29,137 nt of DNA from positions 1-29,137 of the IMG/VR virus record IMGVR_UViG_3300042402_001091; one strand, 5' to 3'. Source of the DNA: a virus. Shown piece by piece: positions 8,904 through 28,315 of the stretch. Position 1 is the stretch's first letter; every line of letters begins with the position of its first letter. The position numbers were made by a program, and so were the translations under genes. The notes below the pieces were generated by a model. The model ran no database searches. It worked only from the letters and a program-made list of their open reading frames with translations, and had not been told where the DNA came from.

Positions 8904-11900
8904 TTAATTTTGTCTACCTAATGTTGTTTGGAATGCAGTTATTAATCTGTTTAGTGCTGTAGATTCTCCGGATGTTAAATGCGTTCCGAAAGATAAGAAT
9001 TCGTATAATTTTGGATCATATCCAGTAATTGATCCTGCATTATCTGTTGCCATAATTACCATACCAGCATTTACTAAACCAAATGTTTGAGCTGAAGAAA
9101 TTATAGAACTACCGTTTTTGTAAGCTGTGGTTGTTGAGCCATTGTTTGTTGCAATATAGTAACCTTTAGGTTCCACATTTGATGTTGTTTTCCAACCGCC
9201 TCCGAATTGGGTATAGAAAGTATCGTTTCCGAAATTAGCAATCATACCCCATTCTATATTTTGAGTTGAATTATACATACCCATTTGGAACTGTGCTCCT
9301 GTTTCGCTACTTGCTAAGTATACAGATAAGTGGGCATTGGTCATTGATAATGTATTTGGATTAAAGTAAACTTGTCCGTAACCATTACTTCCATTACCTT
9401 TAACTCCAGAAGAGCTATGAGTTATACCGCCGTTCCAAGTAATTCTATAAGCAGCATTAGTATCCTGTGGATCAATTAAGTTGTATTTAGTTGTTGTAGC
9501 TGTTCCCCCAACGAATGGATAAGCCGCATACATTTTATCCCAAATTCCATATGATTTAAGTCCTATAGTTAAGTTGTTAACAGCTGTTGTGATAGTAGCC
9601 CCGGTTATTCCAGTTGCTGTTAAGAATGCTTGAGCAGATGGTGTTATTTGTCCTACCGCTCTACCTAATGTAGTTTGGAAGGCTTCAATTATATCTACAT
9701 AATCAAAGTATTCAGCTTCAGTTAAAGGATCACCTATGTAATTAAATGCTATTGTTTGTAAAAGTGGATACTCTGGAGAAGAAATACGATAATTATTAGT
9801 AGTAACATTAGCTGATGTAGTGTTATTAGTGTTATTATTTATTAACGTTTTATCTAAATAAACTCTATGCGATGTGTATGAGATATTGCTCCAAGCATTT
9901 ACTCCATAAGTGTTAGCTGGAGGTGTCCATGTGCTTCTATAAGGTTCTCCTCCTGGATCTACTAGACCTAGACCAGTACCAAGTCCTAAATCTAAATAGC
10001 AACTATAAGTTGGATAATCTCCAGGTCCTGCCCAAGGATATTCTCTAACGTAAGGAATGCTTAGACCAATAGCAGTAGAATCAACATTATCTAGCACATA
10101 AGATCCCGCTGAAAAGAATGGTGACGTAGTCAAATCCGTCATTTGGAAATGTGTATCTATGTAATTTACTCCATTACCAGCTAATCCAAATTCACTAAAG
10201 TTAAATGGCCCGTAGAATGTAGCCCTAAATGCTGCATCCGAATCAACAGGATCCATCAAGTTGTACTTGAATGTCGATGAACTAGATCCGACGTAAGGAT
10301 AAACTACCTTCATCTTAGTCCAAATACCAGCTGCTTTCATATCAACAACTAAGGTATTAATAGCAGTTTCTATAGTTGGATCGGTGATACCAGTTGCTGT
10401 TAAGAATGCAACTGCATTTGGATCAAGTCCAGATGGTGCAGTAGCTCCAGTAGCTCCGCCTCCAGTTAGATCTCCAGAGAGATACCAAGTGTTAGCACTT
10501 GACTTAACAAGATTTGCTACTGAGTAATTTGTTCTAAGTACTCGATAGTTGTCTGCTGAGTTTATTACTGCTGGAGCTACTGCATCAATAATAACTGAAG
10601 AAACTCCGTCTCTAGCAACGTATAAGCTAGATCCTACTGGTAAATCAGCAGTAGCATCTGCTGGCACAGTTACTGTTAGGTTAAAAGTTGAATCAGCAAC
10701 AAAGAATTTGCTTGCGTCTGAAACGCCTAACGTGTAGTTTCCAGTTAGACCAACTGGTGTTAGTCCTCCAGCACCGGTAGCACCAGTAGCACCAGTTGCT
10801 CCGTTATTTCCAGCTGGTCCAGTTGCTCCATTGACACCTGAGGTACCTGAGGTACCAGATGAACCATCTACTCCTGATGTACCTGATGAACCATCAACTC
10901 CTGATGTACCTGATGAACCATCTATTCCGCTAGTTCCTGAACTTCCACTTATACCAGATGTTCCACTAGATCCTGCAGCTCCCGTTGCCCCAGTTTGTGT
11001 GTACATAACCTGAGTTAATGTAGCAATCACAGAAGGTATGCCCGGTCTAGTTGGGTTAGTGCCTGCTGGTTCAGCAGAGATCTGCATATTGGTGTCAGCA
11101 GAGTTCCAAGCAAGTTGAAGGTAATCTCCAGGATTTAAGCTTAGTACAAAGTTCCAAGCAGCAACTCCAAAGGTGTCGTTTCCTGGATCTTTAATCAATA
11201 TGCTTTTAGTGTTGCTCCATGCTTCTGCAACGCCATTCTTAACCAACCATATTTCATATTCATTATCCCCGTTGGAAGTTGTAGTGAACTGAGCAGAAAA
11301 CTGTAGGTTATAAGTTCCTGAATTGGAAACTGTTATCTTGCTTCCATCAACAATTGAAACTGCGTTGGCTTCTGCAACGGCACCAAGTGCCATGAAGTTA
11401 ACTGCTGTGGCTCCAGCATTTGTCTGATCTGTGGTGTCATAGAAAGAACCGTAAGCTCCTAATGCTCCACCAGGTCCTGTAGCTCCTGTTGCCCCAGCAA
11501 CTCCAGAACTACCAGCAACTCCCGTTGCTCCAGTAGCTCCAACAGATCCTTGTGCTGCTTTTAAATAATATCCCCTTACATAAGATGCATCTGCAGCATT
11601 AGTATTTTGGAAAGAAAGTAAAATGTAAACATCATTAGCCCAATTGATAGCATAAGAACTAAGAGCAACAGTACTATTAGTCCAATCCGTTTGTGCCGTT
11701 GTAGTTGGAAGATAACCTAAAGTTGCACTAGTTCCATTTTCAATTATAAAACTTCTATGGGTATGATTTTGTAAAGTAGTAGTTGCTGAACTAAGTGATC
11801 CTATCTGAGTTGCACCGCTTAAAGAATTACTTGTGTTGTATCTAATTCTGAAAGTGTTACCTGCAGCAGTACCAACTTTAGTTACCCAAGCATCAAATTC

Positions 11901-14837
11901 TAAATAAGTTCCGGTGGTATAGGTTCCGGCAGGAATGAAAATAGTCTCCGCAATAGTTTCGTTAGTTGTTCCGGTAACAGCAGATGATGATGAAGTCTTA
12001 CTAAAAGTTAAAGTAGATCCTCCAGGAAGACCTTGAGGTCCAGTTGCTCCAGTTGCTCCAACAACCCCGGAAGTACCTGACGAACCAGCTGCTCCGGTTG
12101 CTCCTAAAGCTCCTGATAATTCAATGATGTTGAAAGTACCAGAAGATAAGTTAACACTTGCTACGTTGTCTGCTGCTTGTACCGATATGTCTATCCAATA
12201 AGGAACTCCAGCAGTTAATCCTGCAACTATACCAGATAGCGAAAGAGTATAAGCATTAGCAACGTCCTGATTATTAGAGAAATTTGTGCTAGTGATAGTT
12301 GTACCTACTCCAGTTGCATTATCATTTGTTGAAGGTGCAGTTCCAGTTCCGTATTTTACAATTAACGTGTAAGAATCCTGTGGATTAAAATCGTTAATTA
12401 TGTTGTACGAAGTGTTATAAGTAATCGAAATAGGACTGGTAGTATCTGGAGTGTATGTGAATCCAAAACCAGCAAATCTAGGAGTTGTTAGCGGGAAACT
12501 AGCTCCTCCTGGATTTTTAGTTGCTAAACTACTAAAGTCATAAGACAAAGGTGCAACTGTAGGACTAATCCCGGATGTTCCTGAGGTACCGTTAGATCCA
12601 TTAGCTCCTGAAGATCCAGAAGATCCATCAGCTCCTGACGATCCTGAACTTCCAGAAGTACCTGAAGATCCGTTAGCTCCAGAAGATCCTGATGAACCTG
12701 ATGAACCTGATGAACCTGATGTTCCTGACGAACCATCTTGACCTGGTACACTAGTTTCTCCAAGTGCTATTGCTTGAATGTAACCTACTAAATCTGTAGT
12801 AATATATCCAGGAGTAAAAATATCATTAAATTGTATTCTAAATCCTGTAGTTGCTTTATTTACAATTGAAATGGAAGTAGATCCAGCAGAAGTTAAATCT
12901 ACCCAACCACTAATACCAGTAGATAGGGATTCATATTGAAAATCTACGGAATAATTTGTTGTATTAAATGGAACTGTAAAAGTCCAATCATAATAAACTG
13001 TATTAGTAGGATCGTCATAAATAAACATTCCTCCAGTAACACCAATATTCTTAGCAGTTAATCCAAGACCAATACCAGTTGCTCCTGTAGGTCCAACTAT
13101 AGAAAGTCCCGAAGTACCCGAAGTACCCGAAGATCCATCTTGACCTGGTACACTAGTTTCTCCAGCTGCTATACATTGAACGTATCCAGTAGCATAATTA
13201 GCTGGATTAAAATTGTCAAGTTGAGTAGCTATATAAAGTCTAAATCCAGTATTTGTTTTATTTGTAATATAAAATGGTATATCATTAAAACCTCCTAAAG
13301 ATTGAGAATATCCGGTAGGTCCTGCAATAGCTGGACTAAAAGTTGTCTGAACATCTATGCTATAATTTGCTGTATTAAAAGGTACTGCAAATGTAAAATC
13401 TTTATAAGAATTAGAATTATAAGGTCCAGGAGCTGTAATAAAAGTCCAAGGATCGGTCGAAGAATCGAAAGGAATAACTTTAGAAGTTAATCCAAGTCCA
13501 GTTCCAGTTGCCCCGTTAACCCCAGATGTTCCAGATGTTCCGTTAACCCCAGATGTACCACTAGTTCCATCAGTTCCTGATGTACCACTAGACCCAGATG
13601 TACCAGATGATCCTGCTGATCCGCTAGTTCCACTAGAACCTGAAGTTCCTGACGTACCACTAGTTCCTGAAGTACCGCTTGTACCACTAGTTCCATCAAC
13701 TCCACTTGTACCGGAAGAACCAGAAGTACCACTAGAACCACTTGTACCACTAGATCCACTTGTACCACTAGAACCAGAAGTACCTGATGTACCTGAAGTT
13801 CCTGATGTACCACTGCTTCCTGAACTACCTGAACTACCACTAGATCCTGAAGTACCAGAGGTACCACTAGTTCCGGATGTCCCAGATGTACCGCTTGTAC
13901 CACTACTTCCAGCAGTTCCTGAACTTCCACTGCTACCGCTAGATCCAGAGCTTCCTGATGTACCAGAACTTCCAGACGTTCCGCTACTTCCTGAGCTTCC
14001 GCTTGTTCCGCTACTGCCTGAACTACCTGAGCTACCGCTGCTTCCTGAAGTTCCAGAACTTCCACTAGTACCAGATGATCCAGAACTTCCACTAGTTCCT
14101 GATGAACCAGCAGATCCAGATGAACCACTTGAACCAGATGTTCCAGCAGATCCAGCTTGTGTGTAAGCTAAAGCCCCAACAGCTAACGCAACTGATGCTG
14201 TTGCAGGTTTGTTAGGCAACGTTCCAGCAGGTTGGAATAACGCCTTCATGTTGGTGTCGGTAGAACTCCAGTAAATCTCGTAGTAATCGTTGTCACTAGC
14301 ATTTACCTGGAAAACTTGGGTTGTAGCTTGAATAGCTCCTGTACCTAAAAGAGAGATTACTCGATTAGAACCAACCACGTTCGTACCTTGTCTAGCCAAC
14401 CAGATGTTGACTGTGTCATCTCCTGGATCTGTCTTAAAGAACTGGGCAACAAGTTGTATATTATAGACACCAGCGTTGGTGATGCGAATTCTAGAATTAT
14501 CTGTTACACTAACACCAAATCCACCAACAGTTGTGTTGTATCTGAAAGCATTTGCAGCAGATGGACTAGCATTAGTTTGTGTTACAGTGTCTAAGAAAAT
14601 ACCATAGAATGCGTTAACCCCACCAGGACCAGTAGGACCTGTGGCTCCACCACCTGATCCACCAGTGATACCTGTTACATTTCCTGTGAAATTAATAGTG
14701 GTTTCTGAAATTTCAAACGGTAATATAGTACCGAATCCATCAGTAACTGGTATTAAAACACTTCCAGTAACTCCTTGGGCACCGACGTTTAGTATTCCTC
14801 CGTAGGTGTTTTGTATTCTAGTATTGGTAAAATCCAT
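8904..14837 (-). CDS. giant modular tail fibre with collagen-like repeats
   Basis: This 1977-aa protein is 20% of the genome. Modules from the N-terminus (approximate window positions): a short GATGPTGPGG stretch; a jelly-roll, C1q-like domain A1 (14157-14621); a long Gly-X-Y stretch of Ser/Thr (13500-14153); domain B1 (13165-13500) and its relative B2 (12763-13050); a second Gly-X-Y stretch (12555-12745); a fibronectin-III-like domain (12120-12555); a beta domain (11555-12025); A2, clearly related to A1 (10990-11470); a third Gly-X-Y stretch (10780-10985); a further beta domain (10460-10770); and two related C-terminal ConA/LamG-like domains (9645-10440 and 8907-9640), both opening FLTATGIT and closing AFQTTLGR. 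Collagen-like triplets form trimeric shafts; the tandem C-terminal domains are the likely receptor binders. Confidence 0.9.
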   Translation of the reverse strand: MDFTNTRIQNTYGGILNVGAQGVTGSVLIPVTDGFGTILPFEISETTINFTGNVTGITGGSGGGATGPTGPGGVNAFYGIFLDTVTQTNASPSAANAFRYNTTVGGFGVSVTDNSRIRITNAGVYNIQLVAQFFKTDPGDDTVNIWLARQGTNVVGSNRVISLLGTGAIQATTQVFQVNASDNDYYEIYWSSTDTNMKALFQPAGTLPNKPATASVALAVGALAYTQAGSAGTSGSSGSSGSAGSSGTSGSSGSSGTSGSSGTSGSSGSSGSSGSSGTSGSSGSSGTSGSSGTSGSSGSSGSSGSSGTAGSSGTSGTSGTSGTSGTSGTSGSSGSSGSSGSSGTSGTSGTSGTSGSSGTSGSSGTSGSSGTSGSSGTSGVDGTSGTSGTSGTSGTSGTSGSSGTSGSAGSSGTSGSSGTSGTDGTSGTSGVNGTSGTSGVNGATGTGLGLTSKVIPFDSSTDPWTFITAPGPYNSNSYKDFTFAVPFNTANYSIDVQTTFSPAIAGPTGYSQSLGGFNDIPFYITNKTNTGFRLYIATQLDNFNPANYATGYVQCIAAGETSVPGQDGSSGTSGTSGLSIVGPTGATGIGLGLTAKNIGVTGGMFIYDDPTNTVYYDWTFTVPFNTTNYSVDFQYESLSTGISGWVDLTSAGSTSISIVNKATTGFRIQFNDIFTPGYITTDLVGYIQAIALGETSVPGQDGSSGTSGSSGSSGSSGSSGANGSSGTSGSSGSSGADGSSGSSGANGSNGTSGTSGISPTVAPLSYDFSSLATKNPGGASFPLTTPRFAGFGFTYTPDTTSPISITYNTSYNIINDFNPQDSYTLIVKYGTGTAPSTNDNATGVGTTITSTNFSNNQDVANAYTLSLSGIVAGLTAGVPYWIDISVQAADNVASVNLSSGTFNIIELSGALGATGAAGSSGTSGVVGATGATGPQGLPGGSTLTFSKTSSSSAVTGTTNETIAETIFIPAGTYTTGTYLEFDAWVTKVGTAAGNTFRIRYNTSNSLSGATQIGSLSSATTTLQNHTHRSFIIENGTSATLGYLPTTTAQTDWTNSTVALSSYAINWANDVYILLSFQNTNAADASYVRGYYLKAAQGSVGATGATGVAGSSGVAGATGATGPGGALGAYGSFYDTTDQTNAGATAVNFMALGAVAEANAVSIVDGSKITVSNSGTYNLQFSAQFTTTSNGDNEYEIWLVKNGVAEAWSNTKSILIKDPGNDTFGVAAWNFVLSLNPGDYLQLAWNSADTNMQISAEPAGTNPTRPGIPSVIATLTQVMYTQTGATGAAGSSGTSGISGSSGTSGIDGSSGTSGVDGSSGTSGVDGSSGTSGTSGVNGATGPAGNNGATGATGATGAGGLTPVGLTGNYTLGVSDASKFFVADSTFNLTVTVPADATADLPVGSSLYVARDGVSSVIIDAVAPAVINSADNYRVLRTNYSVANLVKSSANTWYLSGDLTGGGATGATAPSGLDPNAVAFLTATGITDPTIETAINTLVVDMKAAGIWTKMKVVYPYVGSSSSTFKYNLMDPVDSDAAFRATFYGPFNFSEFGLAGNGVNYIDTHFQMTDLTTSPFFSAGSYVLDNVDSTAIGLSIPYVREYPWAGPGDYPTYSCYLDLGLGTGLGLVDPGGEPYRSTWTPPANTYGVNAWSNISYTSHRVYLDKTLINNNTNNTTSANVTTNNYRISSPEYPLLQTIAFNYIGDPLTEAEYFDYVDIIEAFQTTLGRAVGQITPSAQAFLTATGITGATITTAVNNLTIGLKSYGIWDKMYAAYPFVGGTATTTKYNLIDPQDTNAAYRITWNGGITHSSSGVKGNGSNGYGQVYFNPNTLSMTNAHLSVYLASSETGAQFQMGMYNSTQNIEWGMIANFGNDTFYTQFGGGWKTTSNVEPKGYYIATNNGSTTTAYKNGSSIISSAQTFGLVNAGMVIMATDNAGSITGYDPKLYEFLSFGTHLTSGESTALNRLITAFQTTLGRQN
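10858..10926 (-). repeat. 27-bp tandem repeat (2.6 units) in the fibre gene
   Basis: Units at 10858-10884 and 10885-10911 differ by one base, and a partial third copy runs to 10926. They encode successive nonapeptides of the type GVDGSSGTS in the third collagen-like shaft. Length is a multiple of 9 bp, so gain or loss of a unit keeps both reading frame and the Gly-X-Y register. Confidence 0.85.
12733..13164 (-). repeat. pair of exact 30-bp direct repeats flanking module B2
   Basis: The bases 12733-12762 are identical to 13135-13164. Both encode the decapeptide GETSVPGQDG at the end of domains B1 and B2. The two copies are 402 bp apart (a multiple of 3), so recombination between them would cleanly delete or duplicate a B module in frame. 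The span given covers both copies and the module between. Confidence 0.9.
13500..14153 (-). repeat. long collagen-like Gly-Ser/Thr-Ser coding stretch
   Basis: About 218 residues of the fibre are Gly-X-Y triplets, nearly all GSS, GTS or GTSG-type combinations, with a few GVDG and GVNG interruptions near the end. Synonymous codons vary a lot (Ser as TCT, TCA, AGT or AGC; Gly as GGT, GGA or GGC), so the protein repeat is far more regular than the DNA. Confidence 0.9.
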
Positions 14838-17752: not shown

Positions 17753-19291
17753 TTAAAAGCCTTTTACGAGGTTAATTAGGTCTTCGTACATCTTTTTGTC
17801 TCTCATGTAGGTTTCGTACTCCTCTGTGGAAACGAAGTTACCCTGTAGGCTAAAGCCATTTAGTTCACCTGCTCTAACCTTTTTCCAGGTGTCCTGATTA
17901 GTTACCCTCATCTTCACCATCCATGTGCCTACCGGTACTCCTAGGTTATAAACCGAGTTAGCCTTATCACCCTCGTTCTCTACCACCCAAGATTCAAACA
18001 CATATGAACCAGCATTTATGTCATCCTTGTGTTGGATGTTGTTGTCTGCTAGTCTTTGCTCTCTCATAAACTTCTCGGCCATTTTCTTAACCACGTCCTT
18101 AGAGAATCGTACAAAGTAAATGTTTCCGTCGTCGTCTTTTCTTGGGATCTCCATTTCTGGAATAGCAACTGGACCAACTAGTTCTTTCTTGCTCTCATCA
18201 GCAAACATGTAGTTGCTCATCTTTTGTTCAGAAAGTTCTACATTTTTTAAAATGCTATCTGCTTTACGACCAACGTATTTTCCAGTTGGCTCCCATTTAC
18301 CTTCTACTTCTTCGTAGATTTCAATAATGAATCCAGGATCTTCTTCGGTGCCTTTTATTTGGAAATCCGTTCCGGGTACTGTTTTTGATCCATCTACAAT
18401 TTCTCTAATGCGTCCTCTTGGGTTTTGATCTGCAGTTTTCCAGCTAACTGCATCGCCAACTGCTAGTTCTGCCACAGTTGCAAATTCTTCTCCTGACAGA
18501 TAAGATTCTACAGTAGCCACGTGCTCATCCATGTAACCAATGTCGTGCACCATACCAACTCTAGCATCTATCTCGTTCATCACGTCTTTAAAGTCATCGA
18601 CCAATAACTTGATCCCGTCTACTTGGGCTTGTGTAGCCACGCCAGCTTCTACAACCTCTTTTTCAATTAGGAAAATAGCATCTGCCTGTAAAGCAGCAGC
18701 TCTTATCATTCCGATGGTGTCTTGATCTGGAGCCATTTGTACAAGATGTTTAAATGTTGCTATAGCACCTGGACAAATATAGAAATATTTAGTTGGATAC
18801 CCGAAAACATCTATGTTTAGTTCTTCTTCCAAAGCCACAGATTTTTCTACTAGGTCTTTCTTTTTCTTAGGAGTTTGCTGAGTGTAAGGAGCTAGACCGC
18901 CTGTGTTGATCTCCATGTTTGCTCTGATCCAACCACAAAGTTTGTTAGCAGACTCCTCGCTTAACCCTTTACCCTTTTGGTCGGATATGCATTCTTCCCA
19001 AGGGTAATCTGCAAACACATCATATACGAAAGCTTGCTTAGTCATGTTCTCGTAAGTGGAGATACAGATGGCAACTGCCTGATCCTGTTCTTTACCCTCG
19101 TCGATTAAAGTCGGTACACATCTGCCCATGTAGTCAGATTGGCTTTCACCAGCTTTAGGTTCCACGAATGCCTCTTTCTTAAAGTACATAAAGTTCTTTT
19201 CGATAGCCGGGTTATCCACTAGAGCAATGGCGTCTACGCCAGAGTCTTCTAGCTCGTCTATAATTTCTAAATCTATTATTTTCTTTTCCAT
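17753..19291 (-). CDS. XkdF-like prohead protease with extra domains
   Basis: This 512-aa protein ends in the XkdF/peptidase S78_2 pattern at about residues 370-485: VAIPEMEIPRKDDDGNIYFV, FSKDVVKKMAEKFM, NIQHKDD with His421, FESWVVE with Ser434, GVPVGTWMVKMRV and LNGFSLQGNFV. His and Ser are the expected catalytic residues for cleaving scaffold and capsid during head maturation. In front lie extra parts: two Cys-bearing helical motifs (SQSDYMGRCVPTLIDEGKEQ at 51-70, then a PWEECISDQ to KLCGWI segment at 97-122), a helical stretch (180-270), and an SH3/Tudor-like domain at about 272-350 (VGDAVSWKT, RGRIREIVDG, DPGFIIEIYEE) resembling DUF2945. It sits between the tape measure and the scaffold gene. 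Confidence 0.85.
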   Translation of the reverse strand: MEKKIIDLEIIDELEDSGVDAIALVDNPAIEKNFMYFKKEAFVEPKAGESQSDYMGRCVPTLIDEGKEQDQAVAICISTYENMTKQAFVYDVFADYPWEECISDQKGKGLSEESANKLCGWIRANMEINTGGLAPYTQQTPKKKKDLVEKSVALEEELNIDVFGYPTKYFYICPGAIATFKHLVQMAPDQDTIGMIRAAALQADAIFLIEKEVVEAGVATQAQVDGIKLLVDDFKDVMNEIDARVGMVHDIGYMDEHVATVESYLSGEEFATVAELAVGDAVSWKTADQNPRGRIREIVDGSKTVPGTDFQIKGTEEDPGFIIEIYEEVEGKWEPTGKYVGRKADSILKNVELSEQKMSNYMFADESKKELVGPVAIPEMEIPRKDDDGNIYFVRFSKDVVKKMAEKFMREQRLADNNIQHKDDINAGSYVFESWVVENEGDKANSVYNLGVPVGTWMVKMRVTNQDTWKKVRAGELNGFSLQGNFVSTEEYETYMRDKKMYEDLINLVKGF

Positions 19292-19309: not shown

Positions 19310-22186
19310 TTATAGGCGTGCTATATCTGCTATCTTTTTCTGAGCTTCTAGTTGGCTACTGATTTCTGAAGCTAACACGTATGTTTTAATGATTGGTTGG
19401 TTGGTACCTAATCTAGCTTCTGCTCCAGAAGATAGGTTGTTAGGTGCACCACTTCCGCTACCCATTGAGTTAATTCTTTGTAGTGTGGGTAGGAATTTGT
19501 TAGTAGCATCTCGGTTAACAACAAATTCTCCGCCTTCTAGTTCACCTAACGAAGTCATGACTCCACCTTCTGCATGTTTACGTCCCATTAGCAAACCACC
19601 ATTTCCGAATTTGGAACCTCCTCCGCCTCCTCCACCACCGCTACCTGTTTGTGTACCTGGAGGTAAACCTGCTGTACCTTTTACTGGAGGTGGGATAGCA
19701 GATGGTTGGAATTGCTGTGCTTGTATAATTTTTACGTTTGCATAACCAGCTGCTAATGCTGCTGCAGCTGCAATTGCACCAAGAGCAGGACCAACAATCG
19801 GAATACCTGCTAAAGATCTAAAAGCCTGAATAGCCGATTGAACCGCTCCGATAATAGCATTAGCAGTTTCAAATTTCTTTTGGTTTTCGAAATTCTTTTT
19901 TCTAACCGCGTCTTGCTCTAAAGCTATCTTATATTCTAAATCTGCAGTGGCTTCTTTGTTTAATCGAATAGCATTCTGAGTGTTATAATCATTAAGCTGT
20001 TTGTCAGCTTCTATTTGATTTAAAGCTTCCTGATTACCTTGTGCAGCTAGAACATCAGCTTCATACTTTTGTTGTTGAGCTAATTGGGTTTCTTCTAGTC
20101 CTCTTAGTTCATTAGCTTGGGCTTCTGTTTGTGCTGCGTATTTTCTATCAATTCTTGCTAGATCTTCAGCTTCTGCAGCTGCGCTTAGTGCAGAGAATGC
20201 ATCTAAAGCTGCTTGAGTAGCTTGGGCAAACCCATCAATCATTTCCTGATTTTTCTCAAGAAAGTTTAGAACTTTTTGTGCTTGAACTTCTGACCAGTTC
20301 TTCTCATCCTGTTTGTATTCAGTTGCTAAGTTGTCTATTAACTGACCGGTAAGTTTAAGAATTTCTGCATTTCTTTCTTTAGTAGATTCTTCAGATTCCC
20401 CAGCAACATTTTTTAGAAATTCTATTTGTGATCTTAATTGTTTCTCTTGTTCAGCTCTTATTGTCTCTGTGTATCTTGCTTCCGCAGCTACTTTTTCAGC
20501 ATCTGTTGCATCTTTGTTCGATAACACCAAGTATTTTTCTTCCTTAGCAGCATTCTCTATTTCTAGTAATTCTGATTCTTGACGAGCTTTTAAAGCTGCA
20601 AGAGCTTTATCGTTTTGATCTTTAGCAAATTCAGCATTTATTTTATCAATAGATGCTTGTCTTCTTTTTAATAAATCTTGTTGTACTTCATCAACTTGTT
20701 TTTCACCATCTACAATAGAGCTTACATATACTTGTATAGAACCTTCAAGAAATCCTTGTTCATCTACTCTTTGAGCTCTTCTTGCATCAAACCTATCTTG
20801 ATTAAATTTATCGTTTAATTCTATTAATTTATTCCACTTATCCTCTTCAGCTTTAACGAGTTCAGCATTCTTTTCCTCGTCAGTCATCACATAGTCCTTG
20901 TTGAACTGAGCTTGCTGTTCAAGAATTTGCTTTTGTTCTTTGTCTGCTATTTCTTGATATGCTTGTCTAAGAGCTTCGTTAGCATTTTCAAAAGCTTGCT
21001 TTCTTGCTTCGCCTTTTAGCTTTTCGTCTTTTTTAATTCTTTTGACCTCGTCCTCAAATGCTGCATTAGCAATCGCAGCTGCCTTTGTAGTCTCGTCTTT
21101 TATTGTTTGAATTCTTAGATCTCTTTCTTTCTTAAAAACTTCAGCTGCAGCATCTGCTTCAGCTTTAGCCCTTTCTCTAGCTGCTTTAGATCTTTCAGCT
21201 GCTGCTGCAGCTGCTTCTTTCTGTCTAGCAGCTTGTTCAGTATCTAATTTCTTTTGCTCTTTGTTAAACTGTCGTTGTTTACTAAAGTAAGCTTCTTCAG
21301 TGTTAGACAACTTAATCATTGCAGCATCTAAAGCATCCAAGTTTTCTTTAGATTCCCCATATAGTCTAATTGTTTCTCTGGCAGCAGCTACTCGCTTCTT
21401 AGCCAACTCAACCTCTTTAGCAGCTAAAGCTTCTTCGGCTTTTTTAATGTCAGCTAAAGCTTTTTTACGGTCCTCGTATTTAGCATTTGTATCAGATAGC
21501 AAATCCCTAGCCTGAGCAAGAGTTTTATTCTGTTGTGCTCTGGCTACCTCTAGATCCCCTTCGGCTTCCTCAATGGCATTTAAAGTTCCCGCCAATTCCA
21601 TACCTGCTTTGGCATTCTCCGCAAAGTCAATACCTAAAGCAGCTAATGCAGTGGTCACCGCATCGATAGCAGCCACCACACCGTCAATTAACAAGGCAGC
21701 AAACTCTCCGATAGTTTTAATAACTGGACCGATGATACCGGTAAAGGCACCCATGATCTTGTTAAGACCCATTTGAGCTTTCTCACTGGATTCTATACCT
21801 TTTTGGAAAGCTTTAAATACTACAACTAAAGCAGCAATGATAGCACCAACTGGAGTTGCTATGAATCTTAACGAAGCAGCGGTCATCGAATTGATACCAC
21901 CAATTACTCCACCGATAGGACCAGGTATTTCTGATAGGGATTTACCAAAGCCTTTTAAAGCCCCCATAGCCCCTTGAGGCTTTAACCCTTCAACACCTTC
22001 GGTCTGTAAGGTCCTTAGAGACTTTTTAGCAGTCTCAGATTCTTGGATCAGATTGCCAAAATTAGGATCATTGATGTTGCTATTAGCTATGGTTGCATCA
22101 AGTTTCTTTATTTGTTCTTGTATCCCCGCAATTGTATTAGCAGCTTGTTCGCCGTTTATTTTAAATACAAATTCTTTTTGAGCCAT
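19310..22186 (-). CDS. tail tape measure protein
   Basis: This 958-aa protein sets tail length and is carried in the tube lumen. It has hydrophobic segments near the N-terminus (about 107-127, TPVGAIIAALVVVF, and 150-190), very long Ala/Glu/Lys/Gln-rich coiled coils (about 200-790), a second hydrophobic region around 800-830, a run of eight Gly (850-857), and a C-terminal motif with EGGVMTSLGELEGGEFVVNR common in tape measures. At about 1.5 angstrom per residue it would suit a tail near 140 nm (an estimate from the general rule). It follows the two large tail-tip genes, opposite to the usual order, and precedes head genes. Confidence 0.93.
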   Translation of the reverse strand: MAQKEFVFKINGEQAANTIAGIQEQIKKLDATIANSNINDPNFGNLIQESETAKKSLRTLQTEGVEGLKPQGAMGALKGFGKSLSEIPGPIGGVIGGINSMTAASLRFIATPVGAIIAALVVVFKAFQKGIESSEKAQMGLNKIMGAFTGIIGPVIKTIGEFAALLIDGVVAAIDAVTTALAALGIDFAENAKAGMELAGTLNAIEEAEGDLEVARAQQNKTLAQARDLLSDTNAKYEDRKKALADIKKAEEALAAKEVELAKKRVAAARETIRLYGESKENLDALDAAMIKLSNTEEAYFSKQRQFNKEQKKLDTEQAARQKEAAAAAAERSKAARERAKAEADAAAEVFKKERDLRIQTIKDETTKAAAIANAAFEDEVKRIKKDEKLKGEARKQAFENANEALRQAYQEIADKEQKQILEQQAQFNKDYVMTDEEKNAELVKAEEDKWNKLIELNDKFNQDRFDARRAQRVDEQGFLEGSIQVYVSSIVDGEKQVDEVQQDLLKRRQASIDKINAEFAKDQNDKALAALKARQESELLEIENAAKEEKYLVLSNKDATDAEKVAAEARYTETIRAEQEKQLRSQIEFLKNVAGESEESTKERNAEILKLTGQLIDNLATEYKQDEKNWSEVQAQKVLNFLEKNQEMIDGFAQATQAALDAFSALSAAAEAEDLARIDRKYAAQTEAQANELRGLEETQLAQQQKYEADVLAAQGNQEALNQIEADKQLNDYNTQNAIRLNKEATADLEYKIALEQDAVRKKNFENQKKFETANAIIGAVQSAIQAFRSLAGIPIVGPALGAIAAAAALAAGYANVKIIQAQQFQPSAIPPPVKGTAGLPPGTQTGSGGGGGGGGSKFGNGGLLMGRKHAEGGVMTSLGELEGGEFVVNRDATNKFLPTLQRINSMGSGSGAPNNLSSGAEARLGTNQPIIKTYVLASEISSQLEAQKKIADIARL

Positions 22187-25200: not shown

Positions 25201-25704
25201 GTTAAATAAACCTCCCGGGTTCCAAGAGTTGCTAAGGTTGTTGTAGTTTAGCGGGTGTCCGAGATAACTAAGGTTTAACTGCGAGAGATTATTAGGACCA
25301 ACCACAGAACCAAACGTACTGGTCTCGCCAAAGAAGCCAATCTCGTACTCAATCTTGCCCGTAGCAGCGTTAAGTATGATCCCGTTAAGCCTAATGTTAC
25401 CCGAGGCAAAATAAGCTCCGTTAACGTTGATGTAAGCTAAAGCTTTTTTAGTGGCATCGTAGTCAGTAGAGTTAACATTAAAAGCTGCTTTAAAAAACTT
25501 ACCGTTAATAGCGGTCTGTGGAACTTTAAAGTTCTGGGAGTAACTAGACGTGGTGGCAGTTGGTTCCTCGATGCTCTGCACACTAAGCGAGATCTTGATG
25601 GGTTCATAATCATATTGGTCTATCTCGATGTAATTCTGATAGTCTGCTGTGGCTCCCGGAAAAAGATCGCCTTGATATTGAGCAAAGAGTTGTACGTACT
25701 GCAT
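22216..25704 (-). CDS. large tail-tip / baseplate-like protein with Cys-rich repeats
   Basis: This 1162-aa protein opens MQYVQLFAQYQGDLFPGATA and for about 780 residues has the Tyr/Asn/Phe-rich, beta-type sequence of Bacteroidota siphophage tail-tip proteins. The C-terminal third holds three Cys-rich repeats of about 75-95 residues, each starting with a CC pair, continuing with a strand-loop-strand core such as YGDSATFTASSNLYSDNIGT, and closing on a final Cys; after them comes a beta-sandwich-like domain (about 1050-1162) with NTAPFTASVTYEWQISFDNI. It starts in a TAATG overlap with the 471-aa gene and is followed by the tape measure. A role in the tail tip and host contact is inferred from position. 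The Cys-rich part could bind the receptor or be disulfide-stabilised. Confidence 0.75.
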   Translation of the reverse strand: MQYVQLFAQYQGDLFPGATADYQNYIEIDQYDYEPIKISLSVQSIEEPTATTSSYSQNFKVPQTAINGKFFKAAFNVNSTDYDATKKALAYINVNGAYFASGNIRLNGIILNAATGKIEYEIGFFGETSTFGSVVGPNNLSQLNLSYLGHPLNYNNLSNSWNPGGLFNGDIVYPLAEWGYTYGTSGPSEGQPLQNTLSVYNGTTSKRGFTNVFNPLNLDQFQPAIRLKVIWDAIFSEAGFSYESDFLEGSWFKNLYMISTNVSSPLLNAKVTANVNFRQGQRIPIVGLETVSPTKLVLSTVVTDTANAVNLNNGTYMIPYTGTYTFRLYLNADFIKTFDYIFNWFVGYMSVTAWVADVDGQIDYSIATQTAYVTFNSGSATFTSGPVKSVIGGVEANYIEFNFFGLEGQRMVFTLSPTSTYFQGLTIASGYLTVTGPLVIVPAGILPAQYKQIDFIKAVNDRFKLMWVPDKNVPNKFKITPWVDWVKSGRQLDWTDKLNQNQSISIKPLFATQPRRVIYKDSEEADIYNFSYQQQYKQTFGQLNNDSNIEIITGEREIKSLFAPLPLAPIGLADTFLVPHFAKDTETQRQPIQVKPRIGFYNGLQDAPYSWYVSPFPWTLGASGGLSFLQTKYPAFSSFDRYPYDSNAMDISWTNPPQFWTEGGTSAGGLLAGPSFDGRTPNTAYSNYWEKWFDNTYDPYSRVMEATFALDSKDVSELLFNDFIFIRDSWWQPIEVKDFILGQKQNVKVKLIKLGAIGVNLDSITNSGTTYYQFPKLCYGPTGACQAACCTDPNEYRLFTTTPTLGSATVFYANGTGSIYANAGFYSDGTTVYQVGNFGSLVGTTLTSACDCSIGGLYPYTVAVSTTGCGSCCATTRATTIYGDSATFTASSNLYSDNIGTSLTPNFYYGTTGGTLQVGTDGHTVTQAVNCSACGCDNLTFNGVRSLANSKVAACCVSGVTGSDGIFTMYQDESTFVSSNAFYYDPSGSSAVPDPVGFTGGTGFVTGSTGWISDGANAHYVIGGTSSSIVACNYTSEPCANRNQPVRIRTQVNTAPFTASVTYEWQISFDNINWFSNNTYSYSGTSTIQVESPFAPNAYVRIKFTVTSSNRVQLILYRNGSNISTTYYDTPGGATTYFSPSFGTIGTGNGWDFYFFYNYPEI
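22600..23370 (-). repeat. three Cys-rich protein repeats in the tail-tip gene
   Basis: Repeat starts: CQAACC, GCGSCC and VAACC in the protein, each followed by a central segment with Tyr, Asp and a phrase like ATFxASSNLYxD or STFVSSNAFYYD, then VxQxxxxxC or VACN. The DNA copies are diverged, so the repeats are old. Confidence 0.75.
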
Positions 25705-27119
25705 TATAGATTTTGTTTTTGCTGTGTCTTAGTGATTGTGCAATCAATTGTTACTTGTACCAATTTAGTTTGTTTAACAAGTTTATATGTGTATTCTAGA
25801 TTGGTTACAGACAACGTGTAAGGAGTTGGATTATCCCCAATGTAAGCCCACACTGAAGGGGATTCGGGAATAGCTCCAAGGAAATCCACATACTCCTGAG
25901 TTAACCAGTTGGTCTGGATACTGAAATTGCTGGTTACCACCTTATTGAAAGATTTGCTACCTCCTAAGATCCAGTTACCAGTTTGGTCTGCTGAACCGTC
26001 CATGGCAACAGGATAAGTCCCGGTCCAGTTAAGGGTAGCCGTACCATAAACTTCTTCTGCGGAAGTTGTGGTCTTCTCATAGAACATATCGAAGTTGTAA
26101 TAGTCCCTGCCTCCTAGGTCATTTAACCAGCTTAACCTAACAACCGGGTAAAGGTCTTGGCACTGGGTGTCGAGGGTAAACCTAACCGTCTCCGAAGCCA
26201 CTACACCTAGGTTAGAGGTACCGGTGGCACTAGCCTTAACGTACGCCTTTACATCGTAGTAAGCAGCTGTGGGATAATCCTCGACAACTGCTAGATCTTT
26301 AGGTCCGCAAGCAACGGTTAGCAAGTCGTACTGAATGTTCTCGGTAGCCGACACATATAGGTTGGTTGCCTGAGGTCCACCGCCTGCACCTGTATTGTTG
26401 TAAAGGAACAGGGTGTCCAATAGTGTGCCAGCCGAGTTATAGATGGCAGCAGATACTAGTTGCACTACTGACTGGGCAGAGGTTGCCGCATCATCATACC
26501 AGTTTAGGAAACTTAGAGTGTGATGATCTATATCGGTAACCGTGATGCTGTTGCTGTCTCTCTTTAGGAACTTACCTAATCCACCAGCTGATGTTGGTCT
26601 CATAAGATAAGGGGAAAAATACCCATAAGGACCAGTTGCTGCCATGTTGTTAACACTGTTCTGATAAGGTAGTGCAGCCGGAATTACTCTGACTGGTTTG
26701 TCAAAGTTGTAAGCCCAAAGAAAGTAAGCAGGATCTCCGGTTACTCCAAAACCATTAAATGTGGTAATGGCTCCTCCAGATGGTCCAGAGTACTGTTCCC
26801 CAACTTTCAGAAACACAGAGGCTGCAATGCCATCCGAATTTCGATAATCTAAACTCCAACCCTCTTCCGCAGAGTAGTTGGTTAGATCTAGATAGGGTTG
26901 CACTATACTACTAACATCCACCATACAAACTCCAGAAGGATTTGGTTTCTGCAGAAGCCTATAAGTGGAAGCAGTTGCTCCAGTGGCAGCATTAATATAA
27001 ACATCAACCACGTAGTTGAAGTCAGTCTGTGTGTTCTGGTTGGACAGAAAACTCCAAACAACCGGATTGTATCCTGGCGACCAGATCTTTGGTTTGTAAT
27101 ATACGTTTGTGATTGGCAT
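25704..27119 (-). CDS. tail structural protein, distal-tail-like
   Basis: This 471-aa protein begins MPITNVYYKPKIWSPGYNPV, and the early part reads NPVVWSFLSNQNTQTDFNYV, with LLQKPNPSGVCMVDVSSIVQ further on; this resembles conserved structural proteins found just before the largest tail-tip gene in Bacteroidota siphophages. It is beta-rich throughout and without hydrophobic membrane segments. It overlaps the chaperone gene upstream and the 1162-aa gene downstream by one base each (TAATG), giving a strict coupled trio. A distal-tail or tail-tip adaptor role is inferred from position. Confidence 0.7.
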   Translation of the reverse strand: MPITNVYYKPKIWSPGYNPVVWSFLSNQNTQTDFNYVVDVYINAATGATASTYRLLQKPNPSGVCMVDVSSIVQPYLDLTNYSAEEGWSLDYRNSDGIAASVFLKVGEQYSGPSGGAITTFNGFGVTGDPAYFLWAYNFDKPVRVIPAALPYQNSVNNMAATGPYGYFSPYLMRPTSAGGLGKFLKRDSNSITVTDIDHHTLSFLNWYDDAATSAQSVVQLVSAAIYNSAGTLLDTLFLYNNTGAGGGPQATNLYVSATENIQYDLLTVACGPKDLAVVEDYPTAAYYDVKAYVKASATGTSNLGVVASETVRFTLDTQCQDLYPVVRLSWLNDLGGRDYYNFDMFYEKTTTSAEEVYGTATLNWTGTYPVAMDGSADQTGNWILGGSKSFNKVVTSNFSIQTNWLTQEYVDFLGAIPESPSVWAYIGDNPTPYTLSVTNLEYTYKLVKQTKLVQVTIDCTITKTQQKQNL

Positions 27120-27934
27120 TAGTTATCTTCTATATTTTTGTAATTCTTTTTTCTGCTCTGCAACCTCTTTCCTAACTTTATCAACTTTCCACGCAAGCCA
27201 ATTAAAAGCCGCCCGAATCTGGAGATGTGACGCTTCTTCGATCTTGAGCGGGTCTTCTCCTGCGAGCGTGATAAGAGTGCTAAACCATCCTCTTGCAGCT
27301 TTGTTAGGATCGGTTGTACCTTCTCTTTCATTTCTGGGGTTGTTGCCATCTCCTGAATCGTCTTGCTCAAAGAGTCCAGCGTAGCTCCTAAGGATCTGTT
27401 TCCTGAAAGCAAAAAAAAAGTTAAAGCCACTTTTGCTTTTGGTAACGAGAATTTTCTAAAGGCTTCTGCTCGATCTGCAAAGGTGTCTGAGTTGTAGTCT
27501 TCGATCTTGTATTTCTTACCTGACGAAGAGACGACAGGTCGATATAGAACTGCCATTGCTTCGTGTAGTCTGTGTTCAACGTTAGCAGAACCTAAGATGA
27601 TATCAAGGTCTGCGAATTCACCAACCGTGATTTTGTCCATGTCGATTAACCCGTAAGTAACCCCGTCTACCTCTACGGTCGGGCTAAAGGTGGAATCCTC
27701 GATAGTGATGTTGGTGTTGATCTGATTCTGAACTGTGATCCATAGGGCTAACCAGTTATCGTAGCTTAACGATCTTAGTCTGTCTACTGGACAGCCAGAA
27801 AGTTCTGACACCACTTTAAACCCGGTTAACTGATCGCTCAAGGTTAACTCTAGTTGCATGTCATAGTAGTCCTGGATGGTTAGATCCCTTACCTCGTACT
27901 TGTCCTTTCCTATCTGGAATGTTGTTGGCTTCAT
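27119..27934 (-). CDS. tail assembly chaperone, zero-frame form
   Basis: This 271-aa product is placed between neck proteins and the tail-tip/tape-measure genes, where lambda G/GT-type chaperones occur. Residues 1-175 look well formed (FQIGKDKYEVRDLTIQDYYD, VDGVTYGLIDMDKITVGEFA, EHRLHEAMAVLYRPVV). After the T9 tract (27411-27419, in codons 172-175) the zero frame continues LLSGNRSLGATLDSLSKTIQ, which is plausible, but from about residue 220 becomes Arg/Lys/Ser-rich (SRSQEKTRSRSKKRHISRFG), as shadow frames often are. The -1 frame from the same tract stays open to 27123 and encodes a more convincing domain. The stop overlaps the next ATG (TAATG). Confidence 0.8.
   Translation of the reverse strand: MKPTTFQIGKDKYEVRDLTIQDYYDMQLELTLSDQLTGFKVVSELSGCPVDRLRSLSYDNWLALWITVQNQINTNITIEDSTFSPTVEVDGVTYGLIDMDKITVGEFADLDIILGSANVEHRLHEAMAVLYRPVVSSSGKKYKIEDYNSDTFADRAEAFRKFSLPKAKVALTFFLLSGNRSLGATLDSLSKTIQEMATTPEMKEKVQPILTKLQEDGLALLSRSQEKTRSRSKKRHISRFGRLLIGLRGKLIKLGKRLQSRKKNYKNIEDN
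27123..27410 (-). CDS. -1 frame extension of the tail chaperone (GT-like C-terminus)
   Basis: Slipping back one base at the T9 tract lets translation continue for 95 codons from GCT (27410) to TAA (27125-27123), for a total of about 270 aa. The segment reads AFRKQILRSYAGLFEQDD, an acidic linker, then RGWFSTLITLAGEDPLKIEE and AFNWLAWKVDKVRKEVAEQK. A Trp-containing helix, a LAGED turn and a terminal charged helix with a W-x-A-x-K-x-D-K pattern fit the C-termini of tail chaperone T-type domains as I remember them. The -1 frame is closed by TAG 14 codons before the tract and has no ATG before this domain, so it can only be reached by frameshifting (or the true sequence differs by one T). Confidence 0.72.
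   Translation of the reverse strand, partial: AFRKQILRSYAGLFEQDDSGDGNNPRNEREGTTDPNKAARGWFSTLITLAGEDPLKIEEASHLQIRAAFNWLAWKVDKVRKEVAEQKKELQKYRR
27411..27419 (-). promoter_or_regulatory. T9 slippery tract with U-UUU-UUG heptamer
   Basis: Minus-strand codons here read ACT TTT TTT TTG CTT. The end of the tract is a canonical X-XXY-YYZ heptamer with all U and a final G, which permits simultaneous -1 slippage of both tRNAs. It lies exactly where the reading switches to the well-formed -1 domain. A nine-base homopolymer is also a typical place for sequencing or assembly indels. Confidence 0.7.
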
Positions 27935-27940
27935 ATTGTG

Positions 27941-28315
27941 TTATTTAAAAGCTTCTTCTATTGCTGCTTCTGTTTGTCTAGCAAGTTCATCTTCTAGCAT
28001 CTTTTGTATCTGTACGTCGTCACTGGAATAGATGCTGCTCCAGTTCTGAGCTTGTATTCCCCCTTGGCCTTTTACGTAACCTCGGTAACTATCTAACTCT
28101 GCAGGTTGACCATAGTTCCCATTATAGTAAGGTCCCGTTCCATAATTAGTAAAAACACCGTAGTCGTCGTAGACCAAATAGACCTGTTCGTTATCGACTA
28201 CAACTCTCAATGACTTCTTTAGCTTACCGGTCTTAACCGGCATCTGTAGGAGTACTCTGGTTTCTATAACCTGAGCAACCTCTCTAAGCACGTTACTAAA
28301 GTCAAACTCTGCCAT
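27941..28315 (-). CDS. HK97 gp10-like neck / tail-completion protein
   Basis: This 124-aa protein shows the HK97 gp10-like pattern: an N-terminal helix (FSNVLREVAQVIETRVLLQM), PVKTGKLKKSLRVVVD with the hallmark P-V-K-T-G-x-L-x-x-S, then strands (VYLVYDDYGVFTNYGTGPYY) containing the Y-G-x-F-x-x-x-G-T pattern, and a C-terminal helix (LARQTEAAIEEAFK). Such proteins sit at the head-tail joint or help to complete the tail end. It overlaps the upstream gene in a TAATG and ends 6 bp before the chaperone gene. Confidence 0.85.
   Translation of the reverse strand: MAEFDFSNVLREVAQVIETRVLLQMPVKTGKLKKSLRVVVDNEQVYLVYDDYGVFTNYGTGPYYNGNYGQPAELDSYRGYVKGQGGIQAQNWSSIYSSDDVQIQKMLEDELARQTEAAIEEAFK

Follow-up and report, generated by a model that had tools for sequence, protein, structure and literature searches.

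The window analysed here, the whole 29,137-nt stretch of the virus record IMGVR_UViG_3300042402_001091, carries on its minus strand (27934..27119(-)) a tail-module gene that probably gives two products in the manner of the G/GT pair, with RNA polymerase slipping at a run of nine T's and both alternative C-terminal tails under selection. For the homologues at large we lean slightly towards a broader reading, in which G/GT-like pairs throughout a lineage of tailed phages arise by polymerase slippage at a strictly kept 9-T (10-T) site, not by ribosomal slippage; a functional second tail would have evolved in the zero frame of the same nucleotides, and one gene would yield two full-length proteins that differ in their C-terminal domains, their ratio being fixed in transcription. 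The features of the gene and its surroundings are as follows.

27941..28315, minus strand: upstream neighbour, HK97-gp10/Neck1/tail-completion-like (phrog_5, E 1.1e-6; PF04883, E 0.009).
27420..27934, minus strand: shared N-terminal domain of about 171 codons, present in both products, tail-assembly-chaperone-like (ORF, homologue identity, AF2 model, phrog_32199).
27456..27458, minus strand: TAG, 12 codons before the run, at which the −1 frame is closed.
27411..27419, minus strand: T9 run (U9 in the mRNA), putative slippage site (T9 or T10 in 111/111 distinct loci).
27388..27390, minus strand: stop closing the +1 frame shortly past the run.
27123..27410, minus strand: −1-frame C-terminal domain, 95 codons and stop, accessible through an added U or by shifting −1, giving a fusion of about 270 aa (conserved motif, no start codon).
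27119..27410, minus strand: zero-frame C-terminal tail, 96 codons and stop, product of 271 aa (openness, constrained −1-silent sites, predicted helices).
25704..27119, minus strand: downstream gene of 471 aa whose ATG overlaps the zero-frame stop (ORF; corresponds by position only to the ~474-aa phrog_35281 protein in phage P12024L).
22216..25704, minus strand: 1162-aa structural protein, phrog_38559 (E 6.3e-14; same order in P12024L).
19310..22186, minus strand: 958-aa tape-measure-like protein (phrog_1506, E 0.0022).

The zero-frame ORF encodes 271 aa, and the T9 on its coding strand (27419..27411(-)) is the longest A/T run of the whole window. In the zero-frame register this run holds U_UUU_UUU (27419..27413) in addition to U_UUU_UUG, the heptamer named in a preliminary description of the sequence. 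Past the run the zero frame is open for 96 codons (stop 27121..27119) and the −1 frame for 95 (TAA, 27125..27123), the two stops lying 4 nt apart with the zero-frame stop farther away. No ATG, GTG or TTG occurs in the −1 frame across its 111 codons, from the TAG at 27458..27456 to the TAA. The preliminary description had thus read the run, the 95-codon opening, the missing start and the product sizes (271 and about 270 aa) correctly; its 97 open zero-frame codons are 96, and the upstream closure of the −1 frame, which it set 14 codons before the run, lies 12 codons before it. A gapped search for the exact context of the window, allowing run lengths from 7 to 11, matched only L002, a separate 7222-bp IMG/VR record with an identical site, and found no other run length, T8 and T10 included, the two variants to which the description had drawn attention.

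Homologous loci were collected with profiles of the N-terminal domain (A1) and the −1 domain (A2), giving 160 locus entries from IMG/VR plus one Bacteroidetes MAG. The window protein itself found L003, which is 59% identical over residues 1-269 with both frames conserved, and further loci that are more distant. Both domains were present in 168 loci and always lay in separate ORFs and different frames (168/168), and a homologue that continues in a single frame was never seen. The C-terminal domain was in the −1 frame in 166 of the 168, the remaining two being one contig present twice (L005/L042). In that contig (L005:4414-4649) 13 nt present in L004 are missing past the T9, which puts the domain in the other shifted frame, either as a variant or through an assembly fault. 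Removal of duplicates left 111 distinct loci, which still include near relatives and are not independent; among them the −1 frame is used in 110, and the run is T9 in 107 (two of these read by eye, outside the scan) and T10 in 4, with no T7 or T8. The result was unchanged when loci were sampled by the N-terminal domain alone; the search itself therefore did not favour the run. The first proposal, of programmed access to the −1 frame and two real C-termini, is supported.

The N-terminal domain is 67% identical to that of L003 and 32-35% identical to other homologues, and its AF2 model has pLDDT mostly above 85. The −1 domain is plainly conserved, with 59% identity to L003 and a core of the form W-G-W...LAxGD in 65 aligned homologues, and is predicted to be mainly helical with moderate confidence. 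Conserved Phe-Phe in both frames accounts for 6-7 T's of the run, a point against the reading of polymerase slippage.

The homologues differ in codon register. The T9 begins at the second codon position of the zero frame in 71 loci, at the third in 25 and at the first in 9, and an in-register U_UUU_UUU is found in every T9 whatever its phase, in the window as in the homologues. This heptamer uses seven T's; the two surplus T's occur on both sides, 3' or 5' according to register, and the total is still 9 (rarely 10). On a tree built on both domains with the T run left out, the register changed at least six times, three of these changes being required by branches with good support; the length of the run changed three times, staying within 9-10. 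Homopolymer length, the property to which RNA polymerase responds, is conserved; codon register is not. A ribosomal −1 slip is served by one heptamer, seven T's in a fixed register. Because length is kept while register shifts, RNA-polymerase slippage explains the site better than a ribosomal slip, and the heptamer slippage of the preliminary description is not supported in the form proposed, nine T's being conserved whatever the register.

Several findings suit slippage by the polymerase. According to PMC5009743, the RNA-DNA hybrid in RNA polymerase is 9-10 bp, and in vivo slippage in bacteria at nine A's or T's has high efficiency and adds nucleotides. One added U leads into the −1 frame, the frame used in 110/111 loci. 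In other genes of these phages, A/T runs are depleted relative to synonymous shuffles, with ratios of 0.47 for runs of 9 and 0.31 for runs of 10, and runs of 11 or more are absent (0 vs 8.5 expected); the depletion deepens smoothly from 6 upward, and it may have other causes. Baranov et al. (PMC1088944) took under-representation of such runs as their indicator. Among the homologues the median distance from the run to the first +1-frame stop is 3 codons, and the stop trap expected there if U8 transcripts matter was too weak to count (closure within 8 codons in 96 observed vs 84 expected).

The strongest rival, which we regard as rather unlikely, is that the ribosome shifts by −1 on U_UUU_UUU (or U_UUU_UUG) in the classical programmed way known from lambda G/GT, with an unusually long zero-frame tail. 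The heptamer stands in register in every T9 of any phase, and the equivalent gene of lambda and most long-tailed phages uses ribosomal frameshifting, as stated in PMC5009743. However, the two T's beyond the seven persist whatever the register, and none of the 111 loci has T7 or T8. Nor did any locus carry, in place of the T run, another heptamer such as the G_GGA_AAG of lambda. A downstream stimulatory structure was likewise not visible, RNA structure past the run showing no excess over 109 loci (mean z −0.3). Judged from the sequences, transcriptional slippage is probably the main route; a ribosomal slip could also take place at every T9, and both may act.

Under the preferred reading of polymerase slippage, RNA polymerase at the 9-T run (nine template A's) would slip at the weak rU:dA hybrid on part of the transcripts, adding one U to give U10. 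The U9 mRNA would be translated into the 271-aa protein with the zero-frame tail, and the U10 mRNA into a protein of about 270 aa in which the same first ~170 residues are followed by the conserved −1-frame domain. By analogy with lambda, the zero-frame product would be the G-like chaperone and predominate, with the fusion as its less abundant GT-like form.

The zero frame past the run was examined by an openness test in which the −1 protein was held fixed and synonymous codons were redrawn. In the window and L003, the only two with a tail of this length, it is open for 96-97 codons vs about 27-30 expected (P = 0.003 each). It is open for more than 20 codons in 109/109 loci vs 39.9 expected and for more than 35 codons in 96/109 vs 25.3 expected. 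In a simulation calibrated on the N-terminal part, the zero frame of L003 stays open, given the window sequence, with P = 0.0012, and the zero-frame identity of L003 to the window is 41/92 vs 34.4 expected (P = 0.039). Divergence at fourfold sites of the −1 frame pointed the same way, being 0.34 in the overlap, 0.47 in the −1-only part and 0.55 in the N-terminal part of matched pairs; a second example gave 0.15, 0.33 and 0.35, respectively. Suppression at silent sites is strongest over the first 30-40 codons past the run and fades beyond 40. Dual coding of the ~290 nt past the run, one of the two options left by the preliminary description, is therefore supported by the zero-frame openness and the reduced −1-silent divergence, most strongly over those first 30-40 codons, which look functional; the rest of the long tail in the window and L003 is open beyond chance, and its function is less certain.

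The other option, that one frame encodes the real product and the other is a by-product open by chance, appears improbable. It would agree with zero-frame amino-acid identities only modestly above expectation (0.22-0.39 vs 0.175-0.31), with the weaker constraint farther along the tail and with the zero frame of the L092 clade, which is open about as expected. Chance openness does not account for the excess seen at the 20-codon threshold in every locus (109/109 vs 40), for the P values of the window and L003 or for the reduced silent divergence in the overlap, and the conservation of the −1 domain speaks against that frame being the by-product.

The constraint in the overlap could alternatively belong to an RNA element and not to a zero-frame protein, a reading that we rate marginally lower still. 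In its favour, silent-site divergence is held down most in the ~100 nt nearest the run. Yet the same interval has no excess RNA structure (mean z −0.3), stops would not be excluded from the zero frame by an RNA element, and the protein model has a predicted helix spanning the run and the first 35 tail residues with pLDDT ~80-88. The AF2 model of the zero-frame product contains predicted helices at 164-197 and 200-233, the first running through the T run and the second following it; pLDDT remains ~80-88 to about residue 210 and is lower after, reaching 48-82 in the final part of the window's tail. The stretch of strongest suppression agrees with the confident part of this model. A PDB fold search with the zero-frame product gave no match.

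An artefact of sequencing or assembly in the homopolymer, or decay of the gene there, is refuted by the homologues: a T9 is a typical error site and L005 has its deletion just after the run, but the same arrangement recurs in 168 loci and in the cultured phages P12024L and P12024S, and a one-frame homologue is never found.

The identity of the gene as a tail chaperone, the name given in the preliminary description, is plausible from position, organisation and weak family matches, and falls short of proof. Among 62 homologues, phrog_32199 was matched in 58, and the chaperone family PF10109 (Phage_TAC_7) in two, weakly (best E 0.0059). A match to the phrog_166 'tail protein' (E 5e-4) and a BFVD match to one annotated chaperone (E 0.016, prob 0.93) were also weak, and PDB profile searches gave no meaningful match. 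The organisation plausibly resembles lambda G/GT in its common N-terminal domain, frameshifted second domain and place in the tail module; neither sequence nor fold places it firmly in that family. The window has, in order, the Neck1/HK97-gp10-like gene, the T9 gene, the 471-aa gene, the 1162-aa phrog_38559 gene and the 958-aa tape-measure-like ORF; the 471-aa and 1162-aa genes stand where the preliminary description had the tape-measure module follow directly. In P12024L, the large terminase is followed by the T9 gene, phrog_30964, phrog_29822 (Neck1-like), phrog_35281 and phrog_38559, with a tape-measure-like ORF farther on. The T9 gene adjoins the terminase in many loci, and in L145 a tape-measure match (E 1.3e-4) lies close downstream of it.

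Ribosomal recoding has a textbook example in the G to GT ratio of tailed phages, and the frameshift in the lambda tail assembly chaperone, in the family of Xu, Hendrix and Duda, is among the closest known systems. The present gene shares with lambda G/GT an apparent tail-module setting, the common N-terminal domain and the −1 fusion to a second domain, whereas lambda uses the ribosomal heptamer G_GGA_AAG and the homologues here keep nine T's whatever the register. For G/GT, frameshifting by the ribosome is well documented (PMC5009743). Frameshift sites in the SEA-PHAGES set are followed by an in-frame stop after 26 nt on average (PMC10274946), compared with ~290 nt and dual coding here. Parallels for the site come from bacteria. 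Thermus thermophilus dnaX also has nine T's in its coding region, at which polymerase slippage adds nucleotides (PMC5009743); its alternative product is truncated (PMC1088944), in contrast to the conserved domain gained here. In bacterial IS elements and Shigella mxiE/spa13, a conserved A/T run likewise joins two overlapping ORFs, with slippage in Spa13 giving a 112-aa extension; these are not phage tail genes, and the available portions of the two sources describe no long dual-coded zero-frame tail (PMC1088944, PMC5009743). Slippage at nine A's or T's is thus known from dnaX, IS elements and Shigella secretion genes and is apparently new in a phage tail-chaperone-like gene, a literature search with most subscription journals outside its scope having found no report of it. 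If a widespread lineage does use transcriptional slippage here, selection would keep the ratio and not the mechanism. A run of conserved length in a drifting codon register would provide a clean natural test, and a dual-coded region of ~290 nt is a long example for a DNA phage.

Cultured members of this phage lineage infect marine Bacteroidota. The Nonlabens (Persicivirga) phages P12024L and P12024S have a homologous gene (phrog_32199) with a T9 and the −1 domain, differing from the window in a zero-frame tail of only ~26 codons, a position next to the large terminase gene and annotation as two hypothetical proteins. These are gp40 and the 55-aa gp41 (L169:8001-8695 and L170:4001-4695), of which gp41 corresponds to the 3' portion of this gene's −1 frame. 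Such genes are split or overlooked by gene callers, and here the −1 part was annotated as a separate small protein. A tblastn search with the window protein against named phages gave no match, and P12024L/S were reached only from more distant members. No clear homologue was detected in phages 11b and P12002L. Flavobacterium phage 6H (L171:10352-10927, AGN89393) encodes a distant N-terminal-domain homologue (HMM E 3.4e-5) for which a matching −1 domain was not found, and may represent a lineage that predates the T9 site or another solution. In L101 (1167-2618), the −1 ORF extends for 418 codons past the run, the C-terminal domain apparently being fused to a further extension of ~340 aa. Elsewhere in the window, 17753-19291 encodes a 512-aa protein with a TUDOR-like domain and an XkdF-type head maturation protease domain, and 8904-14837 encodes a 1977-aa collagen-repeat tail-fibre-like protein.
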